This document shows positions 10,117 to 25,541 of a DNA stretch of 31,279 nucleotides, piece by piece. Position 1 is the stretch's first letter. Each line of letters opens with the position of its first letter. The position numbers and the translations under genes were made by a program. Source of the DNA: a virus. The notes below the pieces were generated by a model. The model was not told the origin of the DNA. It did not search any database and saw nothing but the letters and a program-made list of their open reading frames with translations. The stretch lies in IMG/VR virus record IMGVR_UViG_3300020202_000183, positions 1 to 31,279 of that record; one strand, 5' to 3'.

Positions 10117-10127
10117 CGGCTGCGCCC

Positions 10128-10151
10128 CGCAGCCGAGACGTCTCGGCTGCG
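10128..10151. repeat. 24-bp perfect palindrome, copy 1, upstream of terL
   Basis: A perfect 24-bp palindrome with core CCGAGACGTCTCGG and outer CGCAG/CTGCG arms. It ends 11 nt before the TerL start codon on the minus strand. Two more copies lie at 19023-19046 and 25518-25541. No T-run follows on either strand. Confidence 0.95.
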
Positions 10152-10402
10152 CAATGATCGCCCAGCCCCGCGGCAAGGGTCGGGAATTTTTCGGTGCCGC
10201 CCCCGGCCCGCGATCGCGTCAATCTGACTTCCGCGGCAAAAATTGCGCGGGCCTGGGGGGCAGGCAGGGCGGGTGCGGCCGCGGGGGGGCCCCCCGGGGG
10301 TCGCGATAGGGGGGTGGGTCGGCGCCGCGCCGGCTGATCGGCGATCAGCGGCGGAAGCGGAAAAGCCCTTTGGTTTCCAAGTGCTGGGGAACATGCGCTG
10401 TC
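10152..10402. other. Non-coding, G-tract-rich region between TerS-like gene and TerL
   Basis: No convincing gene is seen here; readings that cross it are Arg/Pro-rich and lack ribosome binding sites. Positions 10283-10318 contain long homopolymer tracts in the order G7, C6, G5, then G6 and G3, which can form strong hairpins or a G-quadruplex. The nine bases CCGCGGCAA occur twice in the left part. Its position between packaging genes makes a cos or pac site a possibility, but this is unproven. Confidence 0.5.
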
Positions 10403-10873
10403 TCACTCGCCTTCGCCGGGGACGATTTCCCCAATGATTTCAATGGTGCCGTCCTCGGCCAGCGCCTGGTCGGCTTTCGGCGCCTCGAGCACCAGGTGCA
10501 CGACCTTGCCGTCCAGGTTGATGGCGATCGGCCGCCGCTCGGCGACGTAGGGCAGCACCGCCGTCGCCGCGTGGCGCTTCTCCTGCAGCGCCTCGAGCGG
10601 CGTGCAGCCGAACTCGGCCGCCAGGTCGAACGGATTGGCCTCGGCGATCTCGAGCAGCACCTCGCGCGGATCCCGGTGCTTGCCGAGCAGCCAGGCCACC
10701 GTGCGCTCCGTCCGCTTGTTGCGCGCGCCAGGCGGCCGGCCCCGCCCGCGCCGCGCGCCCTGCATGACGCGGCCGAGCTCGGTCTGCGCCGGCTCGAACA
10801 GGCCGAGCTGCTCCGGCTCCTCGTCGCCGAGCTGGTCGAGCGCGACCTGCAGCGCTGCCCGCTCGCCACTCAC
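10403..10873 (-). CDS. Putative small terminase-like, AT-hook-type protein
   Basis: A 156-residue acidic protein with a basic AT-hook-like motif (RRGRGRPPGARNKRT, residues 41-55). After this come a helical segment (VAWLLGKHRDPREVLLEIAE) and GCTPLEALQEKRHAATAVLP, and the protein ends with a beta-rich acidic tail. This architecture is common in phage genes placed just before TerL, where they probably serve as the DNA-recognising small terminase or an accessory. The gene is the first of the leftward late operon and starts right beside the iteron-like region, which could carry its promoter or its binding sites. The TerS role is inference from position and motif. Confidence 0.6.
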   Translation of the reverse strand: MSGERAALQVALDQLGDEEPEQLGLFEPAQTELGRVMQGARRGRGRPPGARNKRTERTVAWLLGKHRDPREVLLEIAEANPFDLAAEFGCTPLEALQEKRHAATAVLPYVAERRPIAINLDGKVVHLVLEAPKADQALAEDGTIEIIGEIVPGEGE

Positions 10874-11362
10874 CGAATATCACCCCAATAAACAAAGGCC
10901 TGTAACGGTGCGTTACGGCACCGTCGCAGCAAGATCGGGAGACAAAGGCCTGAACTCATTACCTATTCCTCTGTCTGTAACGATTGCGACACTTGCGACA
11001 CCACATCGCCCTCCGCATGCGCGCGCGCGTGCGCGTTACGCGAGGCCGTCTAGCGTCGCAACTGTCGCAGGTCGTGTAAGGCCTTGGCCGGCCTAGGCAA
11101 TCGCTGCCACATCAGGTGTCGCAGCGGTGTCGCAAGCGTCGCACCCCCTGACCCAATACGGCACACAAGCCCGCGCCGCTGCGGCTTGCTCGATGCCCAT
11201 GGGTCGGGGCGCCGGGCCGGCCGAGGGTATGGACGCGTGCTGAGCGGCATCGTCGGTCCGGCGGTTAGAGGATGAAGCGGCCGCGCGCTGGCGCGCGCGA
11301 CAGTGGTTTGCCAGTGGCGGCTTCGCCGCCGCAGCGGCCTGGCCCGCGTGCCATCGGCCGGC
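10874..11362. promoter_or_regulatory. Iteron-like non-coding region (origin, late control or pac candidate)
   Basis: About 490 bp without a credible gene between the helicase and TerS-like genes. Eight GTCGCA motifs lie at 10923, 11055, 11064, 11118, 11129 and 11138 on plus, and 10985 and 10994 on minus. Successive members of the clusters are mostly 9 bp apart. Also present are GTAACG-GTG-CGTTAC (10902-10916), a direct repeat ACAAAGGCCTG (10892-10902 and 10942-10952), a 23-bp alternating purine-pyrimidine tract (11014-11036), and a GGCGGC/GCCGCC hairpin (11316-11330) just after the helicase stop. Iterons plus a replication gene nearby suggest an origin; late-promoter or packaging sites are alternatives. 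Confidence 0.6.
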
Positions 11363-13210
11363 TCACGCCTGCGCCTCGCCATGCTCGGCCCGCGATCCGA
11401 GCATACGGTCGATCGGCACCAGCGTGGCCCGCGCGGAAACGCCGGCGAAGCGCAGCGGGCTGGCGGGCAGGATGTGCCCCGGCACGCGCCGCAAGGCCTG
11501 CACCCACACGCCGATCGCGCCCGATCGCCCGGCCCAATGGGTGCCGGCGAACAGCACGGCCAGGCCCTGGTGGTTGTTCGCCACCGCGACGTAGGCCTTG
11601 CCATCGTCCCAGGTCACCACCTTGACGCCGAAGGCGCCGAGCGTCTTCTGCGCGCCGGCGGTGTCGGTCGCATCCTCCGGCGTCTCGCGCAGCCCCGCGG
11701 CCTCGGCGATCACCGTGCCCAGCGTCTGGCGCAAGCCGCCGCGGAACGCGTCGATCGGCACCGAGCGCAGGTGCTCGAGGCATCGCTCATGGTCCGGCGC
11801 GTCGTCGCTCACCTCGTGCAGGCCGCCGAGCGCCAGGCGCTCCGCCCAGTTGGCGAGCTCGTCGCCGTCCGGCTCCGACCAGTCGTTTAGCGCCAGGTCG
11901 GCGCAGGCGAGCAGCGTGCCCCACTGGTCGGCCTGGCGCCCGCTATGCCCGCCCTTGGCCAGCGCCTGGCGGAACAGCTCGAGCGTGCGGCCGTAGCGCG
12001 GCCACTGGTCGAGCAGGCGCCGGCGCAATTCGCGGCCCATCTTCTGAACGTCGGCCGGCACCAGCGATGGCGGCGTGGTGCCGCGGCCCAAGGGGTCGAG
12101 CTCGAGGATCGCCATGCGCTGCCGATCGGCCGAGCGCAGCGGCGGGATCAGGATCGAGGTGAACAGAAAGCAGTTGCGCGCCGAGAACTCGGTCGCGCCA
12201 TGGTCGGATCCGCCGCGCAGGATCACGCCGCCCGACGCCGCAAGCCGCGCCAGCTTGATCACCGCCTGCTGCTTGCGGTCGTCGGCATCCGCCTCGAGCT
12301 CGTCCACCGCAACCGGCTGCGAGCTCTGCTTCACCGACTGCCACAGGCCCGCGGCCGAGGTATCGACCACGTCGAGCAAGCCCTGCGGCGCGCCGAGGAT
12401 CTCCTTCAGCCAGTCATGCAACGTCGATTTGCCGGTGCCGGCATCGCCGGTGGTCCACACCATCGGCCGCCACTTGAGCGCCGCGCCGAGCATGCCGGCG
12501 ACCGTCCAGCCTAGGAGCAGATGCGCGTCGCACTCCCGCCGCCAGTTCCAGGTGCCGAACACGCGCAGCAGCTTGGCGCCCGGCCCATCCTCGCCGCCCT
12601 CGACGCGTTGCTCGGCCGGCCTGGGTGCGGGCGCGGCCGCCGGATAGACGAAGCGACCGAGCTGCCCCGGCTGCCGCGGCACCGGGTCGCCGGCGATCGG
12701 CGGCAGGCTGGTCGCCGGCGGCGCCGAGCGGTAGATCGCATCGCCGCAATGCAGCACCAGCTCGCCGAGCTCGCCGAGCCAGCCGCCGGTGCCGCGCACC
12801 CGGTTGACCACGTCCCAGATCCCGGCGCGCGCGCAGGCGCCCATCAGCGTCTCGGCCACCAGCTCCGGCCGCCAGCCGACGATCGCCCGCTCGCCGCCGC
12901 GGCTCTCCTTGCCGAGCCTGGGCCAGAACCGATACAGCAGCGCCTCGTTGCCGCACATCAAGCCGAGCAGATGCAACCGCCCATGCTCCTGCGCGGTCAG
13001 CGGCTCGAGCTCGCGCATGGCGTTGAGGTACCAGTAGGTCTTGCCGCTCTTGCCGAGGGGCTGCACCGGGAACGCCGGCGGCAGGCCTTCGCCGCTCCAG
13101 CCGCCGCCATCGCCGCCGTGCCGATCGTCGGCATCGTCCTCGAAGCGCGGCGCGATCTCCTCGCGGCCCTCCACGACCAGGCGCACGACGTTGTCGCTCG
13201 GCTCGGTCAT
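11363..13210 (-). CDS. Phage replication P-loop ATPase/helicase
   Basis: A 615-residue protein with an AAA+/superfamily-3-like ATPase core. Walker A is GDAGTGKST (255-263) and a Walker-B-like VAVDE is at 300-304. The sensor-like strand NCFLFTS (346-352) and an Arg-rich element (RSADRQR, 359-365) follow in the usual order. The first 250 residues may carry primase-associated or adaptor functions, as in phage helicase-primase pairs, and the C-terminal 200 residues could be DNA binding. I chose ATG 13210 (MTEPSDNVVRLVVEGREEIA), which overlaps the methyltransferase stop (ATGA); a longer reading runs through that gene. Together with the upstream Toprim protein it probably forms the replication module. 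Confidence 0.78.
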   Translation of the reverse strand: MTEPSDNVVRLVVEGREEIAPRFEDDADDRHGGDGGGWSGEGLPPAFPVQPLGKSGKTYWYLNAMRELEPLTAQEHGRLHLLGLMCGNEALLYRFWPRLGKESRGGERAIVGWRPELVAETLMGACARAGIWDVVNRVRGTGGWLGELGELVLHCGDAIYRSAPPATSLPPIAGDPVPRQPGQLGRFVYPAAAPAPRPAEQRVEGGEDGPGAKLLRVFGTWNWRRECDAHLLLGWTVAGMLGAALKWRPMVWTTGDAGTGKSTLHDWLKEILGAPQGLLDVVDTSAAGLWQSVKQSSQPVAVDELEADADDRKQQAVIKLARLAASGGVILRGGSDHGATEFSARNCFLFTSILIPPLRSADRQRMAILELDPLGRGTTPPSLVPADVQKMGRELRRRLLDQWPRYGRTLELFRQALAKGGHSGRQADQWGTLLACADLALNDWSEPDGDELANWAERLALGGLHEVSDDAPDHERCLEHLRSVPIDAFRGGLRQTLGTVIAEAAGLRETPEDATDTAGAQKTLGAFGVKVVTWDDGKAYVAVANNHQGLAVLFAGTHWAGRSGAIGVWVQALRRVPGHILPASPLRFAGVSARATLVPIDRMLGSRAEHGEAQA

Positions 13211-13869
13211 GCCGCCGCCCCGCGCGCGCCGAGCCGCGCGATCGCCGCACGGCCGATGAACTCGGCATAGGCCGGCGGGATGGCGTTCTTGATCTCGCGG
13301 CCGATCATCCAGTCGATGCCCATGGCGTCGCGCCATTGAGCGATCAGCCCGTGCGGCATCCGCCGGCCTCGGCCGTCCTTCATTCGCCACGATGTGCCGC
13401 CTGGTCGCCCTACCACGGTCACCGAGCCAGGCCGGCTGATCGGCCCGAACCTGCGGTTGGGCGGCGGAGCGAGGCAGAAGAAGTTCAGCTCGAAGTGCCG
13501 TCTGCGATGCGTGTTGAGGCCGAACATGTCGCCGTCGAGCACCAGATCCGGACGCACCGGCGACCTGGCGATGTTCTCGATGCACCACAGCCGCGCGCGC
13601 TTGAGCAGCTGCCGCGTCGGCTCCAGCAGATCGCCCGGCTTCAGCTTGCTCTGGGGGATGTACTCCTGGCACGGCGGCGACGCCCACACGAAGTCGAAGC
13701 GCGCCAGGTCGAACGGCGGGTTGAGCGCGTCAGCCTGCACGAAGCGCCCCCCCCTGTGCCGCGGCTGCGGCCGGATATCGACGCCGATCACCTCGAAGCC
13801 GGCGCGCTCGAGCCCGACGGAGACGCCGCCGGCGCCGCAGAACAGGTCGAGCGCGAGCGGCCGGCTCAC
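13207..13869 (-). CDS. Short DNA cytosine-C5 methyltransferase
   Basis: A 220-residue enzyme that would transfer a methyl group from S-adenosylmethionine to C5 of cytosine. Motif I is DLFCGAGGVSVGLERAGF (8-25). The catalytic PPC is in ASPPCQEY (C67). The IENI element (98-101) fills the place of the ENV motif. RRRHFELNF (122-130) matches the QxRxR region, and REIKNAIPPAYAEFIG (191-206) matches motifs IX/X. It is much shorter than typical 5-mC enzymes (300-450), so the target-recognition domain must be reduced. The GTG start at 13869 overlaps the preceding TGA. The likely role is protection of phage DNA from host restriction. Confidence 0.85.
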   Translation of the reverse strand: MSRPLALDLFCGAGGVSVGLERAGFEVIGVDIRPQPRHRGGRFVQADALNPPFDLARFDFVWASPPCQEYIPQSKLKPGDLLEPTRQLLKRARLWCIENIARSPVRPDLVLDGDMFGLNTHRRRHFELNFFCLAPPPNRRFGPISRPGSVTVVGRPGGTSWRMKDGRGRRMPHGLIAQWRDAMGIDWMIGREIKNAIPPAYAEFIGRAAIARLGARGAAA

Positions 13870-14144
13870 TCCAGCACCCCCGCGCGGCGGGCGACCAGCA
13901 GGGCGAACTGCGCGTCGGCGGCCGAGGGCTCGCCGCGCAGCGCCACGCCGCGCGCGATGCAGGCCGCGGCGGCGAGCCGGCCGCGCTGGTAGTTGAGCTG
14001 CTCGGTGACGCCGGCCGCCTCGTACTCGGTGCGCGGCGGCCGTCGCCACGTGCCGTCGATCAACCCCTCGATCAGCGCGCGCCGCGCCGCCTCCGGCGCC
14101 AGGTGCCAGACGCTGTCCGGCTCAATCACGCGCGCCGTGCTCAT
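13866..14144 (-). CDS. Hypothetical protein in replication operon
   Basis: A 92-residue helical protein starting MSTARVIEPDSVWHLAPEAA. It contains LNYQRGRLAAAACIARGVAL and a C-terminal FALLVARRAGVLE, and no known domain is visible. It overlaps the Toprim gene upstream (ATGA) and the methyltransferase downstream (GTGA), so all three are made together. A partner or regulator of the replication or methylation proteins is possible but cannot be shown. Confidence 0.72.
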   Translation of the reverse strand: MSTARVIEPDSVWHLAPEAARRALIEGLIDGTWRRPPRTEYEAAGVTEQLNYQRGRLAAAACIARGVALRGEPSAADAQFALLVARRAGVLE

Positions 14145-15232
14145 GCCGCCGCTCCTCCGCGAATGAGATCGTTGACGTCCTTCACCTCGGCCGGCGGCTT
14201 CGCCACGAACACCCGCCGCCGGTCGGCCAGGAACCGGCGCACCGCGCGGTCGAGCGCGGCGATCGCCTCGGGCTCCTTGTCGTTCTGCGCCACGATGGTG
14301 ACGCGCTCGATCTGCGCCGGCAGGTGGATCGCCGCGAGATTGCCGAGGCTCACCGCCGCGACCACGCGATGCAGCGGGCAGGCGATCGCCACCGTGAGCG
14401 CGTCCTCGATGCCCTCGGTGATGAACAGCTCGGATCCGGCCGGCGCCTCGCGCAGGCTCTTGCCGCTCGCGCCGCGCCAGATCGGGATCAGCCCGCCGGC
14501 ATAGGGGCCGAAGGTCTTCTTCGGCTCGGCGACGCGCGCCTTGCGCCAGGCGCCGTCATAGTGCTCGAGCCAGGTGCGATGCACCGTGAGCTGCGGCCCC
14601 TCCGGCGAGTTCACCGCGGCGATCAGCGCCGGGAACCGCTCCTCGAGCTTCACCTCGCCGGTCGCCTTGTCCCATTCGATGTACTTGAGCGCCGGGTGGA
14701 AGCGCAGCGCGCGCGGCTGCCGGCCGAGCCGGCCGAGGTCGAGCCCGCGCGCCTTGAGGTAGAGATCCGCCGGCGTGCCCTTGAGGCTCGACTGCGCGCC
14801 GACGAACAGCGCGAAGGCGGCGCGGCGCTTCCTCTCGCGCTCGGCCCGGTCGGCGCGCTGCGCCGCGGCGGCGTTCGCTGCCGCCTCGGCCCGCGCGCGC
14901 TCGAGCGTCAACGGGTCGGCCTGGTCGAGGCCGAGCCAGGCGCGCGCCCATTTCACCGCCGCCTTCTTGTCGCCGTTGGTGGCGAGATAGGCGACCAGGT
15001 CGAGCGCATCGCCGGCCCGATCGGCGGCGAAATGCTTCCACACGCCGGCGCGGGCGCCGACCAGGTGCACCCGCATGCTGTCGCCGAGCCCGCCGTCCTT
15101 GCGCCGCGCCTCGATCCACTCGGCGCCCTCGCGATGCCCCGCCGGCAGCAGCCGCTGGCACAGCGCCACGACGCGATCGGCCAGCATCTGCACGAGCTGG
15201 TCGAGCGGGATGGCGGGACGGGGCGCGGTCAT
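14141..15232 (-). CDS. Toprim-domain primase-like protein
   Basis: A 363-residue protein of the phage/plasmid Toprim primase type, acting in DNA replication. The N-terminal part carries a GVWKHFAADRAGDALDLVAY segment (63-82), as seen in primases that bind DNA through this region. A charged linker follows (about 108-140). The Toprim domain is C-terminal, with LFITEGIEDALTVAIA (269-284) containing the catalytic Glu and IVAQNDKE (313-320) at the metal site. No zinc-finger cysteines are evident at the N-terminus. ATG 15232 was chosen because it couples to the small membrane gene; the longer reading continues into that gene's frame. It works with the downstream helicase. Confidence 0.82.
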   Translation of the reverse strand: MTAPRPAIPLDQLVQMLADRVVALCQRLLPAGHREGAEWIEARRKDGGLGDSMRVHLVGARAGVWKHFAADRAGDALDLVAYLATNGDKKAAVKWARAWLGLDQADPLTLERARAEAAANAAAAQRADRAERERKRRAAFALFVGAQSSLKGTPADLYLKARGLDLGRLGRQPRALRFHPALKYIEWDKATGEVKLEERFPALIAAVNSPEGPQLTVHRTWLEHYDGAWRKARVAEPKKTFGPYAGGLIPIWRGASGKSLREAPAGSELFITEGIEDALTVAIACPLHRVVAAVSLGNLAAIHLPAQIERVTIVAQNDKEPEAIAALDRAVRRFLADRRRVFVAKPPAEVKDVNDLIRGGAAA

Positions 15233-15659: not shown

Positions 15660-15661
15660 AG

Positions 15662-15769: not shown

Positions 15770-15811
15770 AGGGCACCTCTGCTAGGCTTGGTCGGGCAGG
15801 GGAGGACAGGG

Positions 15812-16081: not shown

Positions 16082-16093
16082 CGCGCGCGTCGC

Positions 16094-16405
16094 TCATGCC
16101 GCCTCGCTTTCCGCCAGAGCCACCGCAACCGGCGGCGCGGCCGCGGGGACCGCGCCGCCGGCCGAGCCGCCACCCCCAGCCGCGGCCAGGGGCTCAGCCC
16201 CCCCAAGCGCTCGCTCAGGCAGCTCGAGAAAATCGTTGGGCTGCACCTGCTCGCCCGACCACAGCAGGATGCGATGCAGCAGGCGGGTGCGCGGCTGGCG
16301 CCGGCCAAGCTCGATCTTCGCCAGGGCCGCCTGGCTGATCTGCAGCTCGCGCGCCGCCTCGGCCTGGGTCTTCCCCTGGCGGATGCGGAATTCACGTAGC
16401 CGCAT
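16094..16405 (-). CDS. Cro-like helix-turn-helix regulator
   Basis: A 103-residue protein with an N-terminal XRE-type helix-turn-helix (about 5-40: REFRIRQGKTQAEAARELQI followed by SQAALAKIELG). After this comes an Ala/Gly/Pro-rich tail with no known domain. It is divergent from the CI-like repressor across a shared control region, the classical Cro position, and is the first gene of the leftward early operon. I chose ATG 16405; a TTG at 16408 in the same frame is an alternative. It probably represses lysogenic functions or autoregulates early transcription. Confidence 0.78.
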   Translation of the reverse strand: MRLREFRIRQGKTQAEAARELQISQAALAKIELGRRQPRTRLLHRILLWSGEQVQPNDFLELPERALGGAEPLAAAGGGGSAGGAVPAAAPPVAVALAESEAA

Positions 16406-16563
16406 CAACGGCTAGTCCAATTTGTCATCACGATCTGGTGGCCCCTCAGCCTAGCCATACGAGATGTGGTAGTGCGTTTTAGTCCTATGCGGATTACAAT
16501 GTCAAGGTGTTACCGGCCATTAACGATGGAGGGTTTCAGGCCGGACGCGCCTATGCAGTTCGC
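16406..16563. promoter_or_regulatory. Divergent repressor/Cro control region with operator
   Basis: This AT-richer region separates the two regulators. A leftward promoter is clear: TTGACA (16505-16500), 18-bp spacing, TAAAAC (16481-16476). A rightward -10, TACAAT (16495-16500), overlaps it but has a weak -35, as expected for an autoregulated repressor promoter. An imperfect dyad TAGTCC-N5-GGATTA (16480-16496) lies across both. A second half-site, TAGTCC, occurs at 16413-16418 near the Cro start. The same dyad type occurs at 18361-18377. Confidence 0.65.
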
Positions 16564-17322
16564 ATGGGTCGTCCGCTCTCGACGCCGAAGCCAGGCATCA
16601 AATACCCTAACCGCCTGCGGGAGCTGCGCTCGCTGCGCGGCCTGTCGCAGGAGGAGCTCGCCGCACAGGTCGGCATCAGCCAGACCGAGGTCGGCAAGCT
16701 GGAAACCGGCAAGCACCAGCTGAAGGTCGAGCAGCTCAAGCGGTTCGCCGGCGCGCTGGAGGTTCCAACGGGGGCGATCTTGGGCGAGCAGGACATGCCA
16801 ATCCCGATCCGCTACCGCATCGCCGCCTTCGGCGGACCGGTGGACAGCGACGAGCTCGAGCCGCGGAAGCCGCTCGGCTACATGCGCCCCGCCCGCCCGG
16901 TGGCCGAGCCGGAGCAGTGCTTCGGCGCGCTGGTCGCCGACGACAGCGCCGACTTGATCTATCCGCCGGGCACCGTGCTGATGGCGCGCCGCACCGAGCA
17001 TCTCGGCGGCGAGCTGCCGGTTGACGGCCGCACCAAGTTCATCGTCAAGATCTTCTCAACGAACCTGGCGGCCGGTGACCTGCAGGAGATCCTGGTCGGT
17101 CTGCTCGACCAGGCGGTCGATGGCTCCTTGACGCTGGTCACCCGCACGCGCAACCGGCACATCCGCCACGGCGTGGCGCTGCGCCGGCCCATGGTGTCTG
17201 CCGACTTTCACGAGATCCAGCAGGACCTGGCGCCGCGCGACCGGCCGGTGCAATACCGCTCCGACGCCGCCGATCTCGGCCTTATCCTGGGCCGGGTCGA
17301 ACGGGCGGAGCGGCCGGAATAG
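16564..17322 (+). CDS. CI-like repressor (XRE HTH with LexA/S24-like C-terminus)
   Basis: A 252-residue lysogeny repressor. The N-terminal XRE domain spans about 15-65 (LRSLRGLSQEELAAQVGISQ, then TEVGKLETGKHQLKVEQLKR). The C-terminal part has CFGALVADDSADLIYPPGTVL (about 118-138), which takes the place of the S24/LexA GDSM element and keeps a Ser, and then KFIVKIF as a possible lysine strand. Self-cleavage is therefore possible but the motif is atypical. I prefer ATG 16564; a GTG at 16507, seven bases after the TACAAT -10, would add 19 residues and make the mRNA leaderless. Its last 41 bases overlap a convergent gene. Confidence 0.8.
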   Translation: MGRPLSTPKPGIKYPNRLRELRSLRGLSQEELAAQVGISQTEVGKLETGKHQLKVEQLKRFAGALEVPTGAILGEQDMPIPIRYRIAAFGGPVDSDELEPRKPLGYMRPARPVAEPEQCFGALVADDSADLIYPPGTVLMARRTEHLGGELPVDGRTKFIVKIFSTNLAAGDLQEILVGLLDQAVDGSLTLVTRTRNRHIRHGVALRRPMVSADFHEIQQDLAPRDRPVQYRSDAADLGLILGRVERAERPE

Positions 17323-18261: not shown

Positions 18262-18555
18262 TTGCCCAATCCTCGCGGCGTGCAACTGCTTGTCCCAAAT
18301 CGAATTTCGCCTGTTACACATTCGGGACATCAACCGGCGCATAAATGTGGCTTGCTGTTTCAGTCCGAAATGGATTAGGATGCGCCCCGCTCACCCCTGG
18401 CTGGGGGAGGGGCCGAGACGCCGGGCCGCGACAGTGCCCGACAAGACCCCGGGCCGGCGGTTCGCGCGGCGAGCTCGCGAGACCCCCCGCGGCAGTGCTG
18501 CCCTGCCGCCGGCCCTCAACGGTCCCGCTGTTGCTGGCGGGCCAGGGGTTCACAC
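18262..18555. promoter_or_regulatory. Second divergent control region and long leader of the rightward operon
   Basis: A rightward promoter is visible: TTGCTG (18352-18357), 18-bp spacing, TAGGAT (18376-18381). The dyad CAGTCC-N5-GGATTA (18361-18377), of the same type as in the repressor region, lies in its spacer. TGTCCC/GGGACA arms lie further left, towards the nuclease. The transcript would have a leader of about 165 nt holding a 10-bp inverted repeat, GGGCCGGCGG/CCGCCGGCCC (18451-18460 and 18506-18515), with smaller hairpins in the loop. That leader might serve attenuation or antitermination. Confidence 0.6.
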
Positions 18556-18732
18556 ATGAGCCTGCTCGTCGTGATCGGGCACACCCACCAGGCGCGCCGC
18601 CGCCGGCTGGTGCGCCTGCGAAACCGCGTCCGGTTCTACCTGCTGCCGACCCTCGGCGGCCTGCTCGGCGCCGGCCTCGTCGCGCTCGGCTACGCCTGGG
18701 CGCTCGACGCGATCGACTGGTTTCGGCCGTGA
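18556..18732 (+). CDS. Small membrane protein, first gene of rightward operon
   Basis: A 58-residue protein starting MSLLVVIGHTHQARRRRLVR. The basic N-terminal half is followed by one membrane segment (about 28-51: FYLLPTLGGLLGAGLVALGY), ending DAIDWFRP. AGGGG precedes the ATG by 7 nt. Its last codon and stop overlap the GTG of the next gene. Charges suggest the N-terminus stays in the cytoplasm. Function unknown. Confidence 0.7.
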   Translation: MSLLVVIGHTHQARRRRLVRLRNRVRFYLLPTLGGLLGAGLVALGYAWALDAIDWFRP

Positions 18733-19064
18733 AGCCGCGCCAGGCGCCCCAGGGCGATGCGCTGCAGCAGCGCATCAACCACCTCTGCGGCCGGGTGTCG
18801 CACCTGCGCGGCAGCATCCGCCACCTGATCGGCCACATCCGGCGCTGGCAGCGCAGCCTGACGCTGCCCGCCTCCGGCAGCACGCTCGACCCCTGGCTGC
18901 GCCAGCGCGCCAGGCAGCGGATCGAGCGCGATCTCGCCACCCTGCGCAGCCACCGCGCCCGCTACCGCCGCGACTGGCGCGAGCTCCTCGACCTGCGCGC
19001 GCTGCGCGCCCAGCTGCGTGTCGCCAGTCGAGACGTCTCGACTGGCCAAGAGGCGGCGGCATGA
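18729..19064 (+). CDS. Hypothetical basic helical protein
   Basis: A 111-residue, Arg/His-rich protein starting at GTG 18729 (MKPRQAPQGDALQQRINHLC), coupled to the preceding gene by GTGA. Most of it is helix with a coiled-coil-like RLRG/HLIGHIRRW region and a long ARQRIERDLATLRSHRARYR segment. The C-terminal codons (VASRDVSTGQ) are made by the 24-bp palindrome at 19023-19046. It may bind nucleic acid given its charge, but no motif is recognised. Confidence 0.65.
   Translation: MKPRQAPQGDALQQRINHLCGRVSHLRGSIRHLIGHIRRWQRSLTLPASGSTLDPWLRQRARQRIERDLATLRSHRARYRRDWRELLDLRALRAQLRVASRDVSTGQEAAA
19023..19046. repeat. 24-bp perfect palindrome, copy 2, before an early gene
   Basis: A perfect 24-bp palindrome with core AGTCGAGACGTCTCGACT. 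It lies inside the last codons of one gene and ends 14 nt before the ATG of the next. It shares its core with copies at 10128-10151 and 25518-25541. Confidence 0.95.
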
Positions 19065-19346
19065 GCGCCTTTCCGCTCACGCCCGAGCAGCTCGCCGACA
19101 CCCTCCGCGCGATGCCGGAGGATTTCGAGCTGCACCCGCTCCACGCCTGCCTCTGCCCGATCGCCTGTGCATTGCGCGAGCGTGGCCATGTCGATGTCCG
19201 CGTGCATTCCGAGATCGCCGAGTTCGACGGGGACGCGGTCTTTCCTGCCGAACTGGGCGCAATCCTATGTCGACCAGGTCGACGGCATCCGCGGCACGAT
19301 CTCGCCCCTCGAGGCGCTGCGCCTGCTGGAGCAGGTGCTGGCATGA
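19061..19346 (+). pseudogene. Frameshifted early gene (hypothetical)
   Basis: The gene starts MSAFPLTPEQLADTLRAMPE and codes well up to EIAEFDG (around 19230). The frame in use then turns Arg/Pro-rich, while the plus-one frame gives a natural continuation, TRSFLPNWAQSYVDQVDGIR..., ending LEALRLLEQVLA with TGA at 19344-19346 coupled to the next ATG. Removing one base of the GGGG run (19229-19232) would join the two parts into a product of about 94 residues. As it stands, translation runs in frame into the next gene and makes a 184-residue fusion. It could be a real mutation, a sequencing error, or programmed frameshifting. No domain is recognised. Confidence 0.7.
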
Positions 19347-19615
19347 AGCCGCGCACCCTCGCCGCGCTCGAGGACGCGGCGCTGCCGTCGGGCCTGTGGC
19401 GCGGCCACAACGGCCGCTGGCACGGCAACGCCGGGCCGCACCACGCCAACGCCGTGATGGCGCTGGTCGGCGCCGGCTACCTCGCCATCGTGCCCGCCGG
19501 CGACCGCGCGGGCATCACCGCCGCGGGCCTCGCCGCGCTGGCCGAGTTCCATGGGCCCGACCCGCTCACGCCCGCCGAGGCGCTGACGATGCTCGCCGAG
19601 GTGCCGGCATCATGA
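19343..19615 (+). CDS. Hypothetical protein, paralogue copy A
   Basis: A 90-residue protein starting MKPRTLAALEDAALPSGLWR. Its first 62 residues are almost identical to the gene at 19860. The pattern (GLWRGHNGRWHG, then HHANAVMALVGAGYLAIVPA) looks like a small winged-helix fold: the final strand pair DRAGITAAGLAAL is typical of wing regions. The tail PDPLTPAEALTMLAEVPAS differs from copy B. Coupled by ATGA to both neighbours. A DNA-binding role is a guess. Confidence 0.7.
   Translation: MKPRTLAALEDAALPSGLWRGHNGRWHGNAGPHHANAVMALVGAGYLAIVPAGDRAGITAAGLAALAEFHGPDPLTPAEALTMLAEVPAS
19344..19533 (+). repeat. 190-bp direct repeat, copy A
   Basis: Matches 19861-20050 over 190 bp with two mismatches (at 19510 and 19528). 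The repeat covers the start and most of the coding part of two paralogous genes 517 bp apart. Such high identity at third codon positions points to recent duplication or gene conversion. Confidence 0.95.
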
Positions 19616-19863
19616 CGCGCACGCAGCGCCTGTGGATGCACCGGGCTTACATGGCTGGCGGCCTGGAAAGGACGCGCTTCGGGCTGTGGCGGCCCTGCGG
19701 CATTTCGTTCGGCGAGGGCTGTGCCCCGCGCACCGTCGAGACCTTGGCGCGCGCCGGCCTGGTCACCCTCGATCACGAAGTCGCCAGCAAGGCGAAGCGG
19801 GCGTGGCCGACCGTCGAAGGCGTTCACGCCGCGCGACGGATCGAGCGTGAGGGCTGGCTGTGA
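19612..19863 (+). CDS. Hypothetical protein between the duplicated genes
   Basis: An 83-residue protein starting MTRTQRLWMHRAYMAGGLER. The part CAPRTVETLARAGLVTLDHE followed by VASKAKRAWPTVEGVHAARR reads like a winged-helix: helix, helix, then a beta wing. This resembles the general layout of its two neighbours, so all three may be distant relatives. Coupled on both sides (ATGA and GTGA). Function unknown. Confidence 0.68.
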   Translation: MTRTQRLWMHRAYMAGGLERTRFGLWRPCGISFGEGCAPRTVETLARAGLVTLDHEVASKAKRAWPTVEGVHAARRIEREGWL

Positions 19864-20114
19864 AGCCGCGCACCCTCGCCGCGCTCGAGGACGCGGCGCT
19901 GCCGTCGGGCCTGTGGCGCGGCCACAACGGCCGCTGGCACGGCAACGCCGGGCCGCACCACGCCAACGCCGTGATGGCGCTGGTCGGCGCCGGCTACCTC
20001 GCCATCGTGCCCGCCGGCGACCGCGCCGGCATCACCGCCGCGGGGCTCGCCGAGCTCGCGCGCCATCACGGCCTCGGCGTGCTCGAGCAGCAGAAGGCGC
20101 CGGCGCATGGCTGA
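19860..20114 (+). CDS. Hypothetical protein, paralogue copy B
   Basis: An 84-residue protein that starts at GTG 19860 (MKPRTLAALEDAALPSGLWR), while copy A starts with ATG; the duplicated DNA begins at the second base of the start codon. Residues 1-62 equal copy A and the C-terminus is unrelated (ARHHGLGVLEQQKAPAHG). It overlaps the next gene by 8 bp. A small winged-helix DNA-binding protein is possible. Confidence 0.7.
   Translation: MKPRTLAALEDAALPSGLWRGHNGRWHGNAGPHHANAVMALVGAGYLAIVPAGDRAGITAAGLAELARHHGLGVLEQQKAPAHG
19861..20050 (+). repeat. 190-bp direct repeat, copy B
   Basis: Second copy of the 19344-19533 repeat, with differences at 20027 and 20045. It includes the start region of the second paralogue. 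Confidence 0.95.
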
Positions 20115-20492: not shown

Positions 20493-20743
20493 GCACCGAA
20501 GCCGAGCAGCTCGACGCGCTGAAAGACTTGGCGCTCGATCAGACCGACCGCCTCACAGTCACGTTCACGCGCTGGCAGTGGTGGCTGATCTTCTCCAACC
20601 TGCAACTTGCCCTGCGCCACCCGCACAACAAGGGCGCCGGGGCCGTCACTGCCCGGCAGATCGCCACGGCGATCCAGTACGAGATTGCGCCGGCCGGCTC
20701 GCCGCTCGGCGACCTGGCCGAGCGCGGATGGAGCGGCGAGTGA
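20489..20743 (+). CDS. Hypothetical protein
   Basis: An 84-residue protein starting MSTEAEQLDALKDLALDQTD. The centre TFTRWQWWLIFSNLQLALRH is unusually rich in Trp and may bind a partner or membrane surface; it is too short and polar at the edges for a clear transmembrane helix. I chose ATG 20489, coupled to the previous stop; a longer frame would overlap the preceding gene. Confidence 0.65.
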   Translation: MSTEAEQLDALKDLALDQTDRLTVTFTRWQWWLIFSNLQLALRHPHNKGAGAVTARQIATAIQYEIAPAGSPLGDLAERGWSGE

Positions 20744-21027
20744 ACTACACCGTCAAGGACCTGGCGCCGAAGCTGCGCCGCACCTGCGACTGGATCTACA
20801 ACAACCGCGACCTGCTCGCGGCGAAGGGCTTCCCGGCGCCGTTGCCGCTGCCCGGCCGGCCGATGGTGTGGCCGGCCGACAAGGTCGAGGCCTTCCTGCG
20901 CGGCGAGCAGACCGCCCCGCCGCCGGCCGCCGGCGAGGATCCGGAGCTCGTCGCGCGCCGCGAGCGCCGGCGCCAGCGCGCCAAGCAGATCGCCGAACGC
21001 CAGCAGGGGGTTGCCAATGACCGATGA
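20740..21027 (+). CDS. AlpA/excisionase-like DNA-binding protein
   Basis: A 95-residue protein starting at GTG 20740 (MNYTVKDLAPKLRRTCDWIY), overlapping the previous stop. The alternative ATG at 20728 would add MERR. The YTVKDLAPKL...WIYNNRDLLAAKGFPAPLPL and MVWPADKVEAFLRG pattern (residues 3-57) is the AlpA/MerR-like winged helix found in excisionases and prophage regulators. The C-terminus is basic (ARRERRRQRAKQIAERQQG). Lying one gene from the integrase, it is a good candidate for Xis, the directionality factor, or for an integrase regulator. Confidence 0.65.
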   Translation: MNYTVKDLAPKLRRTCDWIYNNRDLLAAKGFPAPLPLPGRPMVWPADKVEAFLRGEQTAPPPAAGEDPELVARRERRRQRAKQIAERQQGVANDR

Positions 21028-21346
21028 GAGCAAGAGCATCGCCGACCATCTCGGCGACAAGATCTACCCGGCCTGCAACATCTTCTCCGTCTACACCTGC
21101 GGCAGCAGCGAGCAGCTGCGCAAGGCGATCGCCGAGGTTCAGGCGCTCGGCGTTGACCAGGCGACCGCGCTCAACCTCGCGCTCGGCGCCGTTGCCGGCG
21201 TCCTTGCCGAGCTGCTGCATCACTTCGATCCGGCGCAACGCGTCGAGCTGCTTCGCGCCGCCGGCGAGCATGCAATCCGCGCTTCACTGCATCTCGACCG
21301 CATCGCCGACCAGGTTGACCCGCCAGCCGCGCCCGGCGTTCACTGA
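21017..21346 (+). CDS. Hypothetical protein before the integrase
   Basis: A 109-residue, mostly helical protein starting MTDESKSIADHLGDKIYPAC. It contains an apolar stretch (ATALNLALGAVAGVLAELLH, about 50-70) that could be an amphipathic or membrane helix. It overlaps the preceding gene by 11 bp and ends 19 bp before the integrase ATG. No function can be given. Confidence 0.65.
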   Translation: MTDESKSIADHLGDKIYPACNIFSVYTCGSSEQLRKAIAEVQALGVDQATALNLALGAVAGVLAELLHHFDPAQRVELLRAAGEHAIRASLHLDRIADQVDPPAAPGVH

Positions 21347-21365
21347 CCCCAGCGGGAGGCGGCAC

Positions 21366-22589
21366 ATGCGGAACGTGGGGCAGCTCGACCTGAGGTTCCT
21401 CAACATCAAGCCCGGGCGCGGCGGCAAGCGCTATTTCTGGAAGCCGACGCCGGCGCTCCAGGCCGCCGGCTGGCGCTCGCAGCGGCTCGACGGCGCGGAG
21501 GCCGATCCGGCGGCGCGCGAGCTCGCCGCCTTCCGCGCCTGCGACGCGCGCAACAAGGAGCTCGAGCAGTGGCGCCGCGGCGCCGCGCCCGGCCACGCGC
21601 CGGCAAGGCTCAAGGGCGCGCAGCCCGGCACCGTCGCGGCGCTGATATCAGCCTATCGCAAGTCGCGTTTCTTCCGCGACCTGGCGGCGAAGACCCGGCG
21701 CGACTACGAGCAGTGCCTGGCGCTGATCGAGGAATGGGCCGGCGAGGATCCGGCGGCGTCGATCGACGCGCAGGACGCCGAGGAATTCTACAGCGAGATG
21801 CGCCCGGCCAAGCCGGCCATGGCCGCCGCGGTGATCCGCGTCGCCCGCCTGGTGTGGAACTGGGCGCCGCGCCTGCCCGGCGCGCCGAAGCTCGAGAAGA
21901 ACCCGTTCGAGAAGCCGGGCATCCGCTCGAACCGGCCGCGGCCGCGCATCTGGTCGCGCCAGGCGGTCGATGCCATGGTCGCCGCGGCCGACGCGCTCGG
22001 CTGGCACTCGATCGGCACGGCGATCGTGCTGAACGAATGGCTCGGCCAGCGCGAGGGCGACATTCTCAAGCTGCCGCGCGAGCTCGATCTGGTCGGCGAC
22101 CTGATCGTCGAGCAGAACAAGACCGGCGCGGTGGCGCCGCTCCCCATCTCCGTCGTGCCGGCGCTGATGGCGCGCCGCGGCGAGGAGATCGCCCGGCAGC
22201 TCGGCCGCCAGGCCGCCGCGAAGGTGGCGCCGATCGCGCTGCCGCCGGAGCTGGTGCTGCACGAGCTCACCGGCAAGCCGTGGAACGAGCACACCTTCCG
22301 CCACATGCTGGCCGAGCTGCGGTTCTACGCCGTCGTCGCCGCGGCGAACGCCGGCCAGGTCGAGCTCGCCCGCGAGCTCGACACCCTGCAGTTCAAGCAC
22401 CTGCGCCACACCGCGGTGACCCGCCTGGCCGAGGCCAACGTCAACGTCGAGCGCATCGCCGCGATCACCGGCCACAGCCTTGCGACAGTCAACCAGATCC
22501 TGGAGCATTACCTCCTGCGCACCAGGAAGCTCGCCCGCGGCGCCTTCGAGCAGCGCCTGGCGGCGGAAGCGAAGGAGCAGAATTCCTGA
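21366..22589 (+). CDS. int: Tyrosine integrase
   Basis: A 407-residue tyrosine recombinase that would insert the phage at attB and, with Xis, remove it. The C-terminal catalytic domain has R229 (WLGQREGDIL), H345 and R347 (KHLRHTAVT), H370 (TGHS) and the nucleophile Y382 (LEHYLLR). The N-terminal domain (about 85-165) contains the SAM-like core-binding part (LISAYRKSRFFRDLAAKTRR). ATG 21366 has GGGAGG upstream. The coding strand points to the att site 1.5 kb away. The terminal LAAEAKE is repeated at the end of the next gene. Confidence 0.93.
   Translation: MRNVGQLDLRFLNIKPGRGGKRYFWKPTPALQAAGWRSQRLDGAEADPAARELAAFRACDARNKELEQWRRGAAPGHAPARLKGAQPGTVAALISAYRKSRFFRDLAAKTRRDYEQCLALIEEWAGEDPAASIDAQDAEEFYSEMRPAKPAMAAAVIRVARLVWNWAPRLPGAPKLEKNPFEKPGIRSNRPRPRIWSRQAVDAMVAAADALGWHSIGTAIVLNEWLGQREGDILKLPRELDLVGDLIVEQNKTGAVAPLPISVVPALMARRGEEIARQLGRQAAAKVAPIALPPELVLHELTGKPWNEHTFRHMLAELRFYAVVAAANAGQVELARELDTLQFKHLRHTAVTRLAEANVNVERIAAITGHSLATVNQILEHYLLRTRKLARGAFEQRLAAEAKEQNS
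22553..22576 (+). repeat. 24-bp direct repeat, copy in integrase end
   Basis: An exact 24-bp sequence that encodes RLAAEAKE and ends in a ribosome-binding-type GAAGGA. The second copy is at 22924-22947, at the end of the following gene. In each case it stands shortly before the next start codon. Confidence 0.9.
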
Positions 22590-22963
22590 TGTCAGAACCG
22601 GCTTCGCTGACGGCGCTGATCGAGATGCTGGAGAAGGCAACGGGTCCGGCGTATGCCCTCGACTGCGAGATTGAAGACTGGCGCTACGCGCTGCTCGGGT
22701 GGGGAAAGCCGCTAGGGCAGCGCATCACGCCGCCAGCTTACACCGCCAGCATCGACGCGGCGCTGACGTTAGTGCCGGAGGGGGACGGCTGGCACCTGGA
22801 CACGGCGCGCATGGCCGACGGAACAGTCTATCGCTGTGTCGTGGGGCCGAGCATGGCGGCATGGGCCAAAACGCCCGCTCTCGCGCTATGCGTCGCGGCG
22901 CTGAATGCTTACCGCATCAAGGAGCGCCTGGCGGCGGAAGCGAAGGAAGGCGGGCAGGGATGA
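22589..22963 (+). CDS. Phage ABA-sandwich-like protein
   Basis: A 124-residue protein starting MSEPASLTALIEMLEKATGP. The segments YALDCEIEDWRYALLGWGKP, YTASIDAALTLVPEGDGWHL and MAAWAKTPALALCVAALNAY match the pattern of small phage proteins with an alpha-beta-alpha sandwich domain, whose function is not known. It starts on the last base of the integrase stop. It ends ERLAAEAKE, coded by 24 bases identical to the end of the integrase. Confidence 0.72.
   Translation: MSEPASLTALIEMLEKATGPAYALDCEIEDWRYALLGWGKPLGQRITPPAYTASIDAALTLVPEGDGWHLDTARMADGTVYRCVVGPSMAAWAKTPALALCVAALNAYRIKERLAAEAKEGGQG
22924..22947 (+). repeat. 24-bp direct repeat, copy in ABA-sandwich gene end
   Basis: Second exact copy of 22553-22576, 371 bp further on; it provides the GAAGGAAGG ribosome binding site for the GIY-YIG gene. 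Confidence 0.9.
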
Positions 22964-23469
22964 GCTCCCTTTGCTACTTGCCTGATGAGGCGGTTGCGCG
23001 CGCTGGCATGACGTTGGACGAGCTTATTAAGCTTGGCGCTCCGGTTATCCGATTAGGTAGAGCGAAGCGCTTTCCGAAGCTAGCGTTTGATCATTGGTTG
23101 GCTGGCGGCCCCACGCCGGCGCAGGGAGTGTCGAACTTGGAGTTGGCTCCGCATCCGGCGCTTCCGACGCCGTCAGAAGCTGCGCCACTTTCCGCGTCTT
23201 TCCGCCCTGGCGTGTATGTGATCACCGGCGGGAACCTCCAGAAGATCGGTGTTGCTGACCATCCGGATAGGCGCTTGCGAGCGTTGCAAACCGCGAACGG
23301 CGTGAGGCTCGTCTTGGTCTTTTTCCTCCGAACTCATCGCCGTGCTTTGGACGTTGAGCGGCAAGCACATAAAAGCTTGGACGCCTGGCGCCGAGAGGGC
23401 GAATGGTTCGAGGTTACAGCTGACGTAGCGGTGGCGACAGTGCTCAATGCGGCCGGCAAGCAGGGATGA
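22960..23469 (+). CDS. GIY-YIG-type (T5orf172-like) protein with N-terminal DNA-binding part
   Basis: A 169-residue protein. Residues 1-50 (MSSLCYLPDEAVARAGMTLD, then IRLGRAKRFPKLAFDHWLAG) look like an AlpA-type helix-turn-helix. Residues 83-155 form a GIY-YIG-family domain of the T5orf172/MUG113 type: GVYVITG (84-90), LQKIGVADHPDRRLRAL (93-109), E133 in DVERQAH, and GEWFEV (147-152). The canonical second YIG tyrosine is replaced by KIG, as is usual in this subfamily. The gene is noticeably richer in A/T, including codons such as TTG, ATT and GTT, than its neighbours, which suggests separate acquisition. It is coupled by ATGA upstream. Confidence 0.78.
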   Translation: MSSLCYLPDEAVARAGMTLDELIKLGAPVIRLGRAKRFPKLAFDHWLAGGPTPAQGVSNLELAPHPALPTPSEAAPLSASFRPGVYVITGGNLQKIGVADHPDRRLRALQTANGVRLVLVFFLRTHRRALDVERQAHKSLDAWRREGEWFEVTADVAVATVLNAAGKQG

Positions 23470-23834
23470 GCGACGAGATCGCGATCGGCGACTGGGTTGC
23501 ACTCAAGGACGGCAGCCCGCCCATGCAGGTTACCGGGCTATTCGATCACCCGTTGACGCCGATCAAGGCCGAGTGGACCGACGCGGCCGGCACCCGGCTG
23601 GCCGGACGCTTCGCGTTCGCAGCGTTGCGCAAGGTCGACCCGGCCGACTTTCCCCCTCCGCGCGCGCCCGACACCGGCTTTGACGCTCGCTACTGGCGCT
23701 TCGTCGCCGAGCTCCCCGCTGGCGCCACCTGGCGCACGCTCGACGACGAGCACCTGCTGGTCGTCGCGCCGGGTCAAGAGCCGTACACGATCCACCTCGG
23801 CACCGGCGAGCGCACGGTCATCAAGCCGACGTGA
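23466..23834 (+). CDS. YodC/DUF2158-like protein
   Basis: A 122-residue protein. The N-terminal MSDEIAIGDWVALKDGSPPM followed by QVTG and AEWTD resembles the small SH3-like DUF2158 (YodC) fold, in which a GD.V.LKSGGP.M element is followed by a Trp-containing strand. The second half (YWRFVAELPAGATWRTLDDE) has no known domain. Coupled on both sides (ATGA, GTGA). Function unknown. Confidence 0.65.
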   Translation: MSDEIAIGDWVALKDGSPPMQVTGLFDHPLTPIKAEWTDAAGTRLAGRFAFAALRKVDPADFPPPRAPDTGFDARYWRFVAELPAGATWRTLDDEHLLVVAPGQEPYTIHLGTGERTVIKPT

Positions 23835-24040
23835 CCAACACCTGCCCGCGCCGCGGCCACGGCGGCTGCAACCTGGCCGAGCTCGGCGATCCCCTCTGTC
23901 TCCGCGAACCTGGCGGCTGCGCTCACCTGACCGCCCAGCAGAAGGAACGGCGCATGTTCCGCCTGCTCGCTGCGCGGTGCCGCGAAGCGCGCGCCAGCAA
24001 CCCGCTCTGGAACGAAAAAGCACGCAAAGTTCCCCAGTGA
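23831..24040 (+). CDS. Small Cys-rich protein, last gene of rightward operon
   Basis: A 69-residue protein starting at GTG 23831 (MTNTCPRRGHGGCNLAELGD). Four cysteines with a histidine in the first half (CPRRGHGGC, PLCLRE, GGCAH) may bind zinc. The C-terminal half is basic (QKERRMFRLLAARCREARAS). Its last codons overlap an inverted repeat that probably forms the operon terminator. Confidence 0.62.
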   Translation: MTNTCPRRGHGGCNLAELGDPLCLREPGGCAHLTAQQKERRMFRLLAARCREARASNPLWNEKARKVPQ

Positions 24041-24076
24041 TTTCCACTGTCGCACTTGTTCGCTCTGCGTGCTTTT
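24016..24076 (+). terminator. Hairpin at the end of the rightward operon
   Basis: An 11-bp perfect inverted repeat, AAAAGCACGCA (24016-24026) and TGCGTGCTTTT (24066-24076), encloses a second hairpin, CAGTG/CACTG (24035-24048). It begins within the last gene and ends in TTTT before CGTCC, so it could stop rightward transcription, and leftward as well. It also contains one candidate integrase arm site. Confidence 0.55.
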
Positions 24077-24243
24077 CGTCCGGATCGAGGAAATACCTGC
24101 CGCACAAGGACAAGTATGGTGGGCCGTGAAGGACTCGAACCTTCGACCCGCTGATTAAGAGATCGCGGGCGGCCCAGTGATTTCAATTTGCTGTCTCACT
24201 TCCGTGTCTACTAAGTCCTTGATCACCGCGTCAAGTGAGACAG
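24033..24243. other. Phage attachment site (attP) with candidate arm-type sites
   Basis: The core is the tRNA-Lys 3' fragment (24117-24161). On each side lies CCCAGTGATTTC (24033-24044 and 24173-24184), followed by CTGTCGCACTT (24047-24057) and CTGTCTCACTT (24191-24201). An inverted copy, AAGTGAGACAG, is at 24233-24243. This order of core plus repeated arm sites on both sides is typical of attP in tyrosine-integrase phages. The integrase gene is 1.5 kb to the left. Confidence 0.75.
24117..24175 (-). tRNA. Partial tRNA-Lys(CTT): 3' part, tRNA-like fold without D-arm
   Basis: Read on the minus strand, the anticodon-loop bases CTCTTAA and TCAGC are followed by a complete T-arm (GAAGG-TTCGAGT-CCTTC), acceptor strand CGGCCC and ACCA. 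This is the 3' part of a tRNA-Lys with anticodon CTT. The normal 5' half and D-arm are absent. However, the upstream bases GGGCCG can pair with CGGCCC, and CCCGC with GCGGG, giving a 59-nt tRNA-like shape. Most likely it is the attP copy of the target tRNA gene and not a working tRNA. Confidence 0.8.
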
Positions 24244-24324
24244 TTGGGGCGACCGGCGCGGCGGGCGTCGTCGATTGTTTCACGTGAAAGGTCAAATGCC
24301 CCTAGGACCGCATTAGGAGCGTTT
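24244..24324. other. Short non-coding stretch between attP and ligase gene
   Basis: AT-richer than the flanks; contains TTTCACGTGAAA (a perfect 12-bp palindrome at 24279-24290). It lies between the leftward ligase gene and the attP arms. No gene is visible. Confidence 0.5.
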
Positions 24325-24954
24325 CTAGAGGGTCTCGCTGATAGCCGCCCTACGGTAGCCCGGGCACTTCACCTTGCGCCAGTCGCGGCCTTTGCCGGAG
24401 ACGTAGGGCCTATCGGAGCGCTTGGCGATGATCCCCTCGGCGCCGATCGCGCAGAGCGTGGCGAATACCCGCTCGCCATCGCCGGCGCTGTGGCTGGCGT
24501 AGAGCAGCGGCAGGCCGGATCCGGCCGGCTCGACTAGGCGGCGCAGCCGGTCCTTGCGCTCGATGAGCGGCAGCGCCCGGATGTCGCGGCCGCGCTCCAC
24601 CAGCAGGTCGAACACCACGTAGACCAGGCCGCGGCCGCGCGCCGCCTGTAGCGCCGGGAAGGAGCTGCGGCCGTGCGCGTCGAGCACGCAGATCTCGCCG
24701 TCGATCAGCGTGCCGGCGAGCCGGAGCGCGGCCAGCGCCCGCGGCACGTCGCCGAGGCGCTTGGTCCAGTCCTGGCCGGTGCGGGTGTAGAGCCTGGCCT
24801 GGTCGCCGCGCGTCGCGGCGATGCAGCGGTAGCCGTCGTACTTCACCTCGTAGATCCAGCTGTCGCCCAGCGGCACGCGATCGGCGAGCTGGGCAAGCTG
24901 CGGCGCGATGAAGGGCGGGAGCTCGGCGGGCTTCGGGCTGGCGGCGCGCGGCAT
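24325..24954 (-). CDS. Minimal ATP-dependent DNA ligase (adenylation domain only)
   Basis: A 209-residue protein of the LigD-type ligase family. Motif I EVKYDGYR (36-43) has the AMP-accepting K38. Other motifs are TRTGQDWT (57-64), IDGEICV (84-90), FDLL (115-118), EGIIAKR (173-179) and WRKVK (192-196). The protein ends 13 residues after motif V, so the OB-fold domain of usual ligases (about 100 more residues) is missing. It would seal nicks weakly, or with a separate partner, or serve as a nucleotidyltransferase. It is the last gene of the right-hand leftward block, next to attP. Confidence 0.82.
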   Translation of the reverse strand: MPRAASPKPAELPPFIAPQLAQLADRVPLGDSWIYEVKYDGYRCIAATRGDQARLYTRTGQDWTKRLGDVPRALAALRLAGTLIDGEICVLDAHGRSSFPALQAARGRGLVYVVFDLLVERGRDIRALPLIERKDRLRRLVEPAGSGLPLLYASHSAGDGERVFATLCAIGAEGIIAKRSDRPYVSGKGRDWRKVKCPGYRRAAISETL

Positions 24955-24973
24955 ACGCCGCCAGCATAGCGCG

Positions 24974-25498
24974 CTATTTGGTGAGGCTGGCTAGGATCTG
25001 ATCCTTGTCCTTGCTCGACCGGCTCGAGCCGAACTCGAAGCTGAAGGCGTCCTTGAGGCAGGCGCCGAAGATGCCGGCCACGGTGCTGATCAGGCCGACC
25101 GCCTCGGGCGGCATCTGGTTGCGGAAGTTCATGATCGCCAGGATGCAGGCGATCAGCCCGCCGGCGGCCGACAGCACCATGATGTCGGCGCGCCAGTTGC
25201 GGCGGCCGGCCTGGGCGAGCGCCACGTCACGCCGACGCGCATCCTGCCGGTCGGCAAGGTAGGCCCGTTCGGTCTCCAGCTCGATCGCCGCCATGTCCTG
25301 GCGGAAGCGCCAGAGCATCTCGGGGTTGGCGCGCAGCGCCTCGGCCGCCTCGCTCTCGCTCGACGTGCCGGTGACGCGCCTCGCCGTGTCGATCACCTGG
25401 CCGGCGACGTCGGCCGCCCTGTCGCCGGCGAACAGCCGGATCATCGACGGCGCGAACTCCGCCGCCAGGCTCAACGCGATCGGAATGAGCGGTGCCAT
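24974..25498 (-). CDS. Holin of the GTA 3TM type
   Basis: A 174-residue protein with three hydrophobic segments: 4-20, 105-124 (DIMVLSAAGGLIACILAIMN) and 132-150 (EAVGLISTVAGIFGACLKDA). It ends FEFGSSRSSKDKDQILASLT, characteristic of the three-transmembrane holins found in gene transfer agents and alphaproteobacterial phages. A charged helical loop (50-100) separates TM1 and TM2. It would form the membrane lesion that lets the endolysin out. A 24-bp palindrome lies 19 nt before the ATG. Confidence 0.8.
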   Translation of the reverse strand: MAPLIPIALSLAAEFAPSMIRLFAGDRAADVAGQVIDTARRVTGTSSESEAAEALRANPEMLWRFRQDMAAIELETERAYLADRQDARRRDVALAQAGRRNWRADIMVLSAAGGLIACILAIMNFRNQMPPEAVGLISTVAGIFGACLKDAFSFEFGSSRSSKDKDQILASLTK

Positions 25499-25517
25499 GT
25501 GATTTCCCTCAGCATTG

Positions 25518-25541
25518 CGCAGTCGAGACGTCTCGACTGCG
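25518..25541. repeat. 24-bp perfect palindrome, copy 3, upstream of the holin
   Basis: A perfect 24-bp palindrome with core AGTCGAGACGTCTCGACT. It sits between the endolysin stop (25544) and the holin start (25498). Same core as 10128-10151 and 19023-19046. Confidence 0.95.

Follow-up and report, generated by a model that had tools for sequence, protein, structure and literature searches.

What is the role of a sequence that appears three times in one phage genome, each time as a perfect 24-bp palindrome and each time just ahead of a start codon? A preliminary description of this DNA had pointed out the three copies and offered operators, translation-controlling hairpins or mobile palindromic elements as answers. 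The analysis presented here covers the whole of IMG/VR record IMGVR_UViG_3300020202_000183 (31,279 bases, 70% GC; hereafter, the window).

Gene content and setting of the palindromes

Family scans recognized terL and the genes for a protease, a major head protein, a portal/head-tail adaptor (phrog_332, 5e-109), a tail fibre, an internal virion protein (phrog_684, 2e-178), an endolysin, a holin-like protein, a DNA ligase, a primase, helicase-like proteins and a tyrosine integrase, as well as for two regulators, namely a repressor of the CI type and a divergent HTH protein resembling Cro. Judged from these gene families, the phage is temperate, with a T7-like virion. Base 1 of the record truncates the head-protein gene, the gene for the internal virion protein is at the opposite end and tail-tube genes are absent (terminal intervals 1-632 and 30942-31279). 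Judged by gene order, this arrangement suggests that the contig is circularly permuted or incomplete, with part of the structural operon missing.

The palindromes and the genes adjoining them are listed in Table 1. The gene downstream from copy 3 had been described as the holin. This identity is plausible, as the gene follows the endolysin just as its relative in locus L094 does, but phrog_1544 is a family of unknown function, and the gene is called holin-like here.

Table 1. Features discussed in the text, with their coordinates in the window
Feature	Coordinates	Strand	Remarks
Palindrome copy 1, CGCAGCCGAGACGTCTCGGCTGCG	10128..10151	-	11 nt 5' of terL ATG (10116, -)
Palindrome copy 2, GCCAGTCGAGACGTCTCGACTGGC	19023..19046	+	14 nt 5' of ATG at 19061 (+)
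Palindrome copy 3, CGCAGTCGAGACGTCTCGACTGCG	25518..25541	-	19 nt 5' of holin-like ATG (25498, -); 2 nt past endolysin stop
Third arm, CGCAGCCGA	10116..10124	-	repeats left arm of copy 1; reaches into terL start codon
terL	8701..10116	-	phrog_2, 6e-14; 44-46% identical along its length to the terL genes in L097, L098 and L100; downstream of copy 1
Probable small terminase subunit (terS)	10403..10873	-	upstream of terL; assigned by position; relatives upstream of terL in L097, L098 and L100
Early-region gene	19061..19615	+	downstream of copy 2; no match in family scans
Holin-like gene	24974..25498	-	downstream of copy 3; phrog_1544, 1e-25; 46% identity to L094 gene beside endolysin
Endolysin	25544..25990	-	upstream of copy 3; phrog_894 and Peptidase_M15_3
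CI-like repressor	16507..17322	+	HTH_3
Divergent Cro/CI-like HTH protein	16094..16405	-	family scan
Putative CI/Cro operator, AGTCCTATGCGGATTA	16481..16496	+	differs from the palindromes
Second putative CI/Cro operator, AGTCCGAAATGGATTA	18362..18377	+	at presumed early promoter

The interval between the probable terS gene and terL contains, at about 10330-10352 on the minus strand, the stretch GCCGCTGATnnCCnATCAGCCGG followed by a G/C run. This stretch is conserved in the terS-terL gaps of relatives L098 and L100 and represents a candidate packaging (cos/pac) site. Inside terL, a 15-bp perfect inverted repeat with a 7-nt spacer (9493-9529) falls within a conserved PEGWRFFRQPSG motif, and a 10-bp perfect hairpin at 24937-24965 carries the ligase start codon (24954) in its loop. 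Just past copy 2, the early region harbors a 199-nt direct duplication (19344-19542 and 19861-20059; 98% identical, 517 nt apart). The gene that follows copy 2 seems to switch frame near position 19250, the other frame of the 19061-19347 interval continuing NWAQSYVDQVDG...EQVLA and stopping at 19347; the apparent change seems to be a frameshift, a pseudogene or a sequencing error.

Symmetry and placement of the three copies

Both the coordinates and the perfect symmetry of the copies were exactly as described. Symmetry ends at 24 bp in all three, the 13th pair being mismatched in each, and a 20-bp core, CAGYCGAGACGTCTCGRCTG, is common to them. Order-3 Markov simulations of the window gave about 0.03 perfect 24-bp palindromes per genome; three palindromes with a common core are far beyond chance. 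The source is a single incomplete IMG/VR record, a circumstance in which an artefact might be suspected. However, in the face of this expectation, and with copies that differ from one another and lie in normal gene surroundings, rather than resembling adaptor or chimera artefacts, chance or misassembly is scarcely credible as an explanation.

Nine of the 12 half-site positions are invariant across copies. Variation had been thought to affect a single position; in fact, three positions (1, 2 and 6) differ. The companion claim, that symmetry is kept by a matching change on the other arm, turned out stronger than originally put, the change being mirrored at all three variable positions. The outer two pairs match in every copy despite their unfixed sequence (CG versus GC), an outcome with a chance probability of approximately 6e-4 given the base composition. 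Matched changes at three positions thus fit either pairing between the arms or self-templated repair. The next-best match to the core in the window has six mismatches, and no intact half-site (0 mismatches) occurs elsewhere in it. A CAA trinucleotide adjoins every copy (10152..10154 and 19047-19049 on the plus strand; 25515-25517 on the minus strand), constituting a weak asymmetric extension. Apart from CAA, the flanks have nothing in common and display no target duplication, which rules out a longer mobile element. The number of GAGACG sites does not deviate clearly from the Markov expectation, which gives no indication that the site is depleted or avoided.

The distances separating the palindromes from the starts of terL, the early gene and the holin-like gene likewise agreed with those first given (Table 1). 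Sequences lying within 25 nt on the 5' side of a called start make up 3.6% of all 24-mers and 15% of the wholly non-coding ones, so that the placement of all three copies near starts has p of about 5e-5 overall and about 0.004 among non-coding 24-mers. Gene calls were made with a simple codon-composition caller, which returned 45 genes, left about 8% of 24-mers non-coding and scored all three palindromes as non-coding. The association with starts exceeds a mere preference for gaps, though not overwhelmingly. Copy 2 had been placed within coding sequence, and this holds only if the ORF at 18345-19064 is real, in which case the palindrome encodes ASRDVSTG in frame near the C-terminus; the gene caller puts the copy in non-coding DNA, and the ORF has poor codon composition and no match in family scans. 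Copy 2 is located about 650 nt into the early region, downstream from a putative early operator (see below), and copy 3 sits between two genes of one operon.

Distribution in other genomes

A REP-like host element, with hundreds of copies, had been fixed beforehand as the contrary outcome. A search of 84,980 species genomes with the 20-mer core, two positions being left free, yielded three unrelated matches, one per genome. Since the core was never repeated within a searched genome, a host REP-like repeat is ruled out among sequenced species. One match, in Paenibacillus (locus L008), has the form A7-stem-T7 and resembles an intrinsic two-way terminator; another, in Alicyclobacillus (L009), lies just past a stop codon; the third belongs to an Actinomycetes MAG. 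The same pattern had no match in 2.9 million IMG/VR contigs. A looser 16-mer core pattern gave 23 matches in IMG/VR, each single in the DNA fetched and none part of a palindrome longer than 18 bp. BLAST returned nothing significant when copies 1 and 3 with their flanks were compared with phages, or copy 3 with plasmids, although close kin that carry the palindrome could exist among records very near the window.

The Paenibacillus and Alicyclobacillus matches bear on whether the palindromes could separate genes of an operon as intrinsic terminators or attenuators, as might the location of copy 3 directly past a stop codon. This explanation is very unlikely: on neither strand is any of the stems followed by a T-tract, a terminator scan omits all of them, and the palindromes immediately precede genes that need to be expressed.

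Relatives were collected by alignment, with terL and the internal virion protein as queries, each of which returned 80 loci (about 160). All were distant (56% identity at most), and scanning with single proteins (the portal and the helicase-like proteins) brought up no close relatives either. The fetched loci contained no comparable family of repeated long palindromes, and CGAGACGTCTCG was absent from 32 full contigs of relatives. In about two dozen relatives the region upstream of terL contained no palindrome, and none was found at the holin position, the relatives being in both cases distant (mostly 40-47% identity); in L094, the endolysin and holin genes abut without a spacer. Absence at orthologous positions in close relatives had been the other contrary outcome fixed beforehand; absence from the present relatives may reflect either recent gain or plain divergence, the kin being too distant to gauge conservation. 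One locus, L137, contains TGGATACCGGTATCCA and AGGATACCGGTATCCT in the interval 1636-1794, 143 nt apart and with a matched change in the outer pairs. This repeated palindrome (GGATACCGGTATCC twice) was set aside as a parallel: it belongs to a local cluster of similar repeats and its association with starts is not clear. From its sequence and distribution, the palindrome of the present phage is probably a phage-private gene-control signal, either a hairpin or a protein-binding site.

Possible functions and comparison with known systems

The reading that we favor, tentatively and with a probability of roughly 0.38, is that of a phage-private cis element in transcribed leaders, read in the RNA as a stem-loop immediately 5' of the ribosome site. 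As RNA, each palindrome is predicted to form a stem of 10 bp capped by an ACGU loop, with predicted energies for the hairpins alone of -19.5, -18.3 and -17.4 kcal/mol; Rfam has no match for it. In their contexts, copies 2 and 3 are predicted to fold as isolated stems, while the best predicted fold of the copy 1 leader uses the third arm, which can compete for the right arm. Deleting or scrambling the palindrome did not consistently alter the predicted accessibility of the ribosome site. A hairpin that by itself exposes or hides this site is therefore not supported by predicted accessibility at copies 2 and 3, and the hairpin model would call for a protein or nuclease as partner. The palindrome would then be a signal shared by three leaders, those of the late operon headed by terL, of the early operon and of the segment with holin and ligase, and the transcript hairpin would set the translation of the downstream gene, or the processing or stability of its mRNA, with the help of a trans-acting partner, which might be an RNA-binding protein of the phage or a nuclease of the RNase III type from the host. 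At terL, the third arm could form an alternative hairpin covering the start codon.

Consistent with a stem-loop, all three copies lie on the 5' side of a start, pairing is always kept where arm positions vary, including the outer pairs, which have no conserved sequence, and one of the three core matches in genomes is the stem of a terminator-like structure (L008). On the other hand, the palindrome has no unpaired center, a property unneeded by an RNA hairpin but typical of a DNA dyad, and the copies are few (n=3). Furthermore, template switching is documented to perfect inverted repeats and quasipalindromes (PMC7202029, PMC3820800), and such correction could match the arms without selection on RNA. 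The more ambitious proposal that a single palindromic stem-loop defines a phage post-transcriptional regulon, timing the early gene, packaging (terL) and lysis (holin) via one phage or host factor, with arms maintained by pairing, is quite improbable.

Alternatively, a homodimeric phage regulator might bind the 24-bp dyad in DNA, blocking or modulating transcription into the three genes. The even length, the fully symmetric center and the nine invariant half-site positions all suit such a site; so does the spread of copies over the two strands and over early as well as late regions, reminiscent of dispersed phage operators (stoperators, PMC9283540), and a position just ahead of genes would be appropriate for a roadblock. 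However, another sequence occupies the positions expected for the CI operator. The partial dyad AGTCC-N5-GGATTA, a motif defined from its own two sites, is found exactly at 16481, upstream from cI, and at 18362, in the early region upstream from copy 2, with no other exact match. The motif, unrelated to the palindromes, is supported by these positions as the natural CI/Cro operator candidate and renders the palindrome disfavored as an immunity operator. No sigma-70-like promoter was detected between 9800 and 26500, a weak test in a GC-rich phage as only 0.6 matches were expected. The lack of promoter-like sequence, together with the location inside operons, points to action on the transcript or as a roadblock rather than to a classical promoter operator. 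The initial list of operators, hairpins and mobile palindromes is borne out in part, its classical operator being weakened by the separate motif at CI/Cro and by the missing promoter-like site. Also at odds with DNA binding are the lack of degenerate sites (next best, six mismatches), although operator families usually grade; the symmetric change at non-conserved outer positions, unexpected for a dimer site; and the finding of no DNA-binding regulator beyond CI/Cro among the proteins scanned. We regard the DNA-dyad reading as unlikely on balance, yet nearly as likely as the RNA stem-loop.

A third explanation, which we consider rather improbable, is that a fold-back or mobile palindrome spread recently to three gene junctions, where it is merely tolerated, and stays perfect by serving as its own template in hairpin synthesis. 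The copies are nearly the same, the window has no decayed versions of them, and they are absent from all relatives searched, all of them distant. Copying of one arm from the other, through the template switching already documented (see above), would yield symmetric differences between copies; a stray third arm adjoins copy 1; and 24 nt correspond to eight codons, in frame in copy 2. Yet there are only three copies, other genomes, plasmids and phages searched having yielded nothing beyond unrelated singles; no mobilizing gene was identified and the flanks lack a target duplication. Moreover, all three copies lie within 19 nt of a start, above what tolerance at junctions would give (0.15 per copy).

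Among known elements, the intercistronic RNase III sites of phage T7 are stem-loops situated just upstream of genes in polycistronic mRNA, which vary in sequence and have internal loops. The placement of the predicted stem is similar; the difference lies in one conserved perfect palindrome being used here. REP and REPIN sequences are short palindromes at gene boundaries, of which host chromosomes carry tens to hundreds, whereas the core of the phage palindrome occurs at most once in any genome searched. The SAS/ESAS elements of cluster K mycobacteriophages are repeated inverted repeats just 5' of the start codons of a subset of genes (PMC3203893, Pope et al. 2011; PMC12699233). Their function has been open since 2011, translation initiation being suspected (PMC3203893). 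Cluster K genomes carry 11-19 SAS, in the non-structural half, and the ESAS are imperfect 17-bp inverted repeats with a spacer of mostly 4-13 bp, usually beside the 13-bp GGGATAGGAGCCC (PMC3203893; PMC12699233). The present palindromes are also inverted repeats directly 5' of starts, at 11-19 nt in all three cases, but they have perfect 12-bp arms, no spacer and no adjacent SAS-like 13-mer, number three, and precede early as well as late genes. The L5-type stoperators of cluster A mycobacteriophages are asymmetric 13-mers, over 20 per genome, bound by the immunity repressor and oriented with respect to transcription (PMC9283540). Like them, the palindromes are short sites dispersed in intergenic gaps of a temperate phage genome; unlike them, they are symmetric 24-mers in three copies, and the probable operator of the repressor is another sequence. 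ESAS and stoperators are the nearest analogues of the palindrome, which is comparable to them in place and, by sequence comparison, is a member of neither group.

If functional, the palindrome would provide a temperate phage with a compact signal common to its early, packaging and lysis genes, and would offer a simple case in which start-associated inverted repeats can be tested. Should it instead be self-templated, it would show how new symmetric sites can arise at phage gene junctions.
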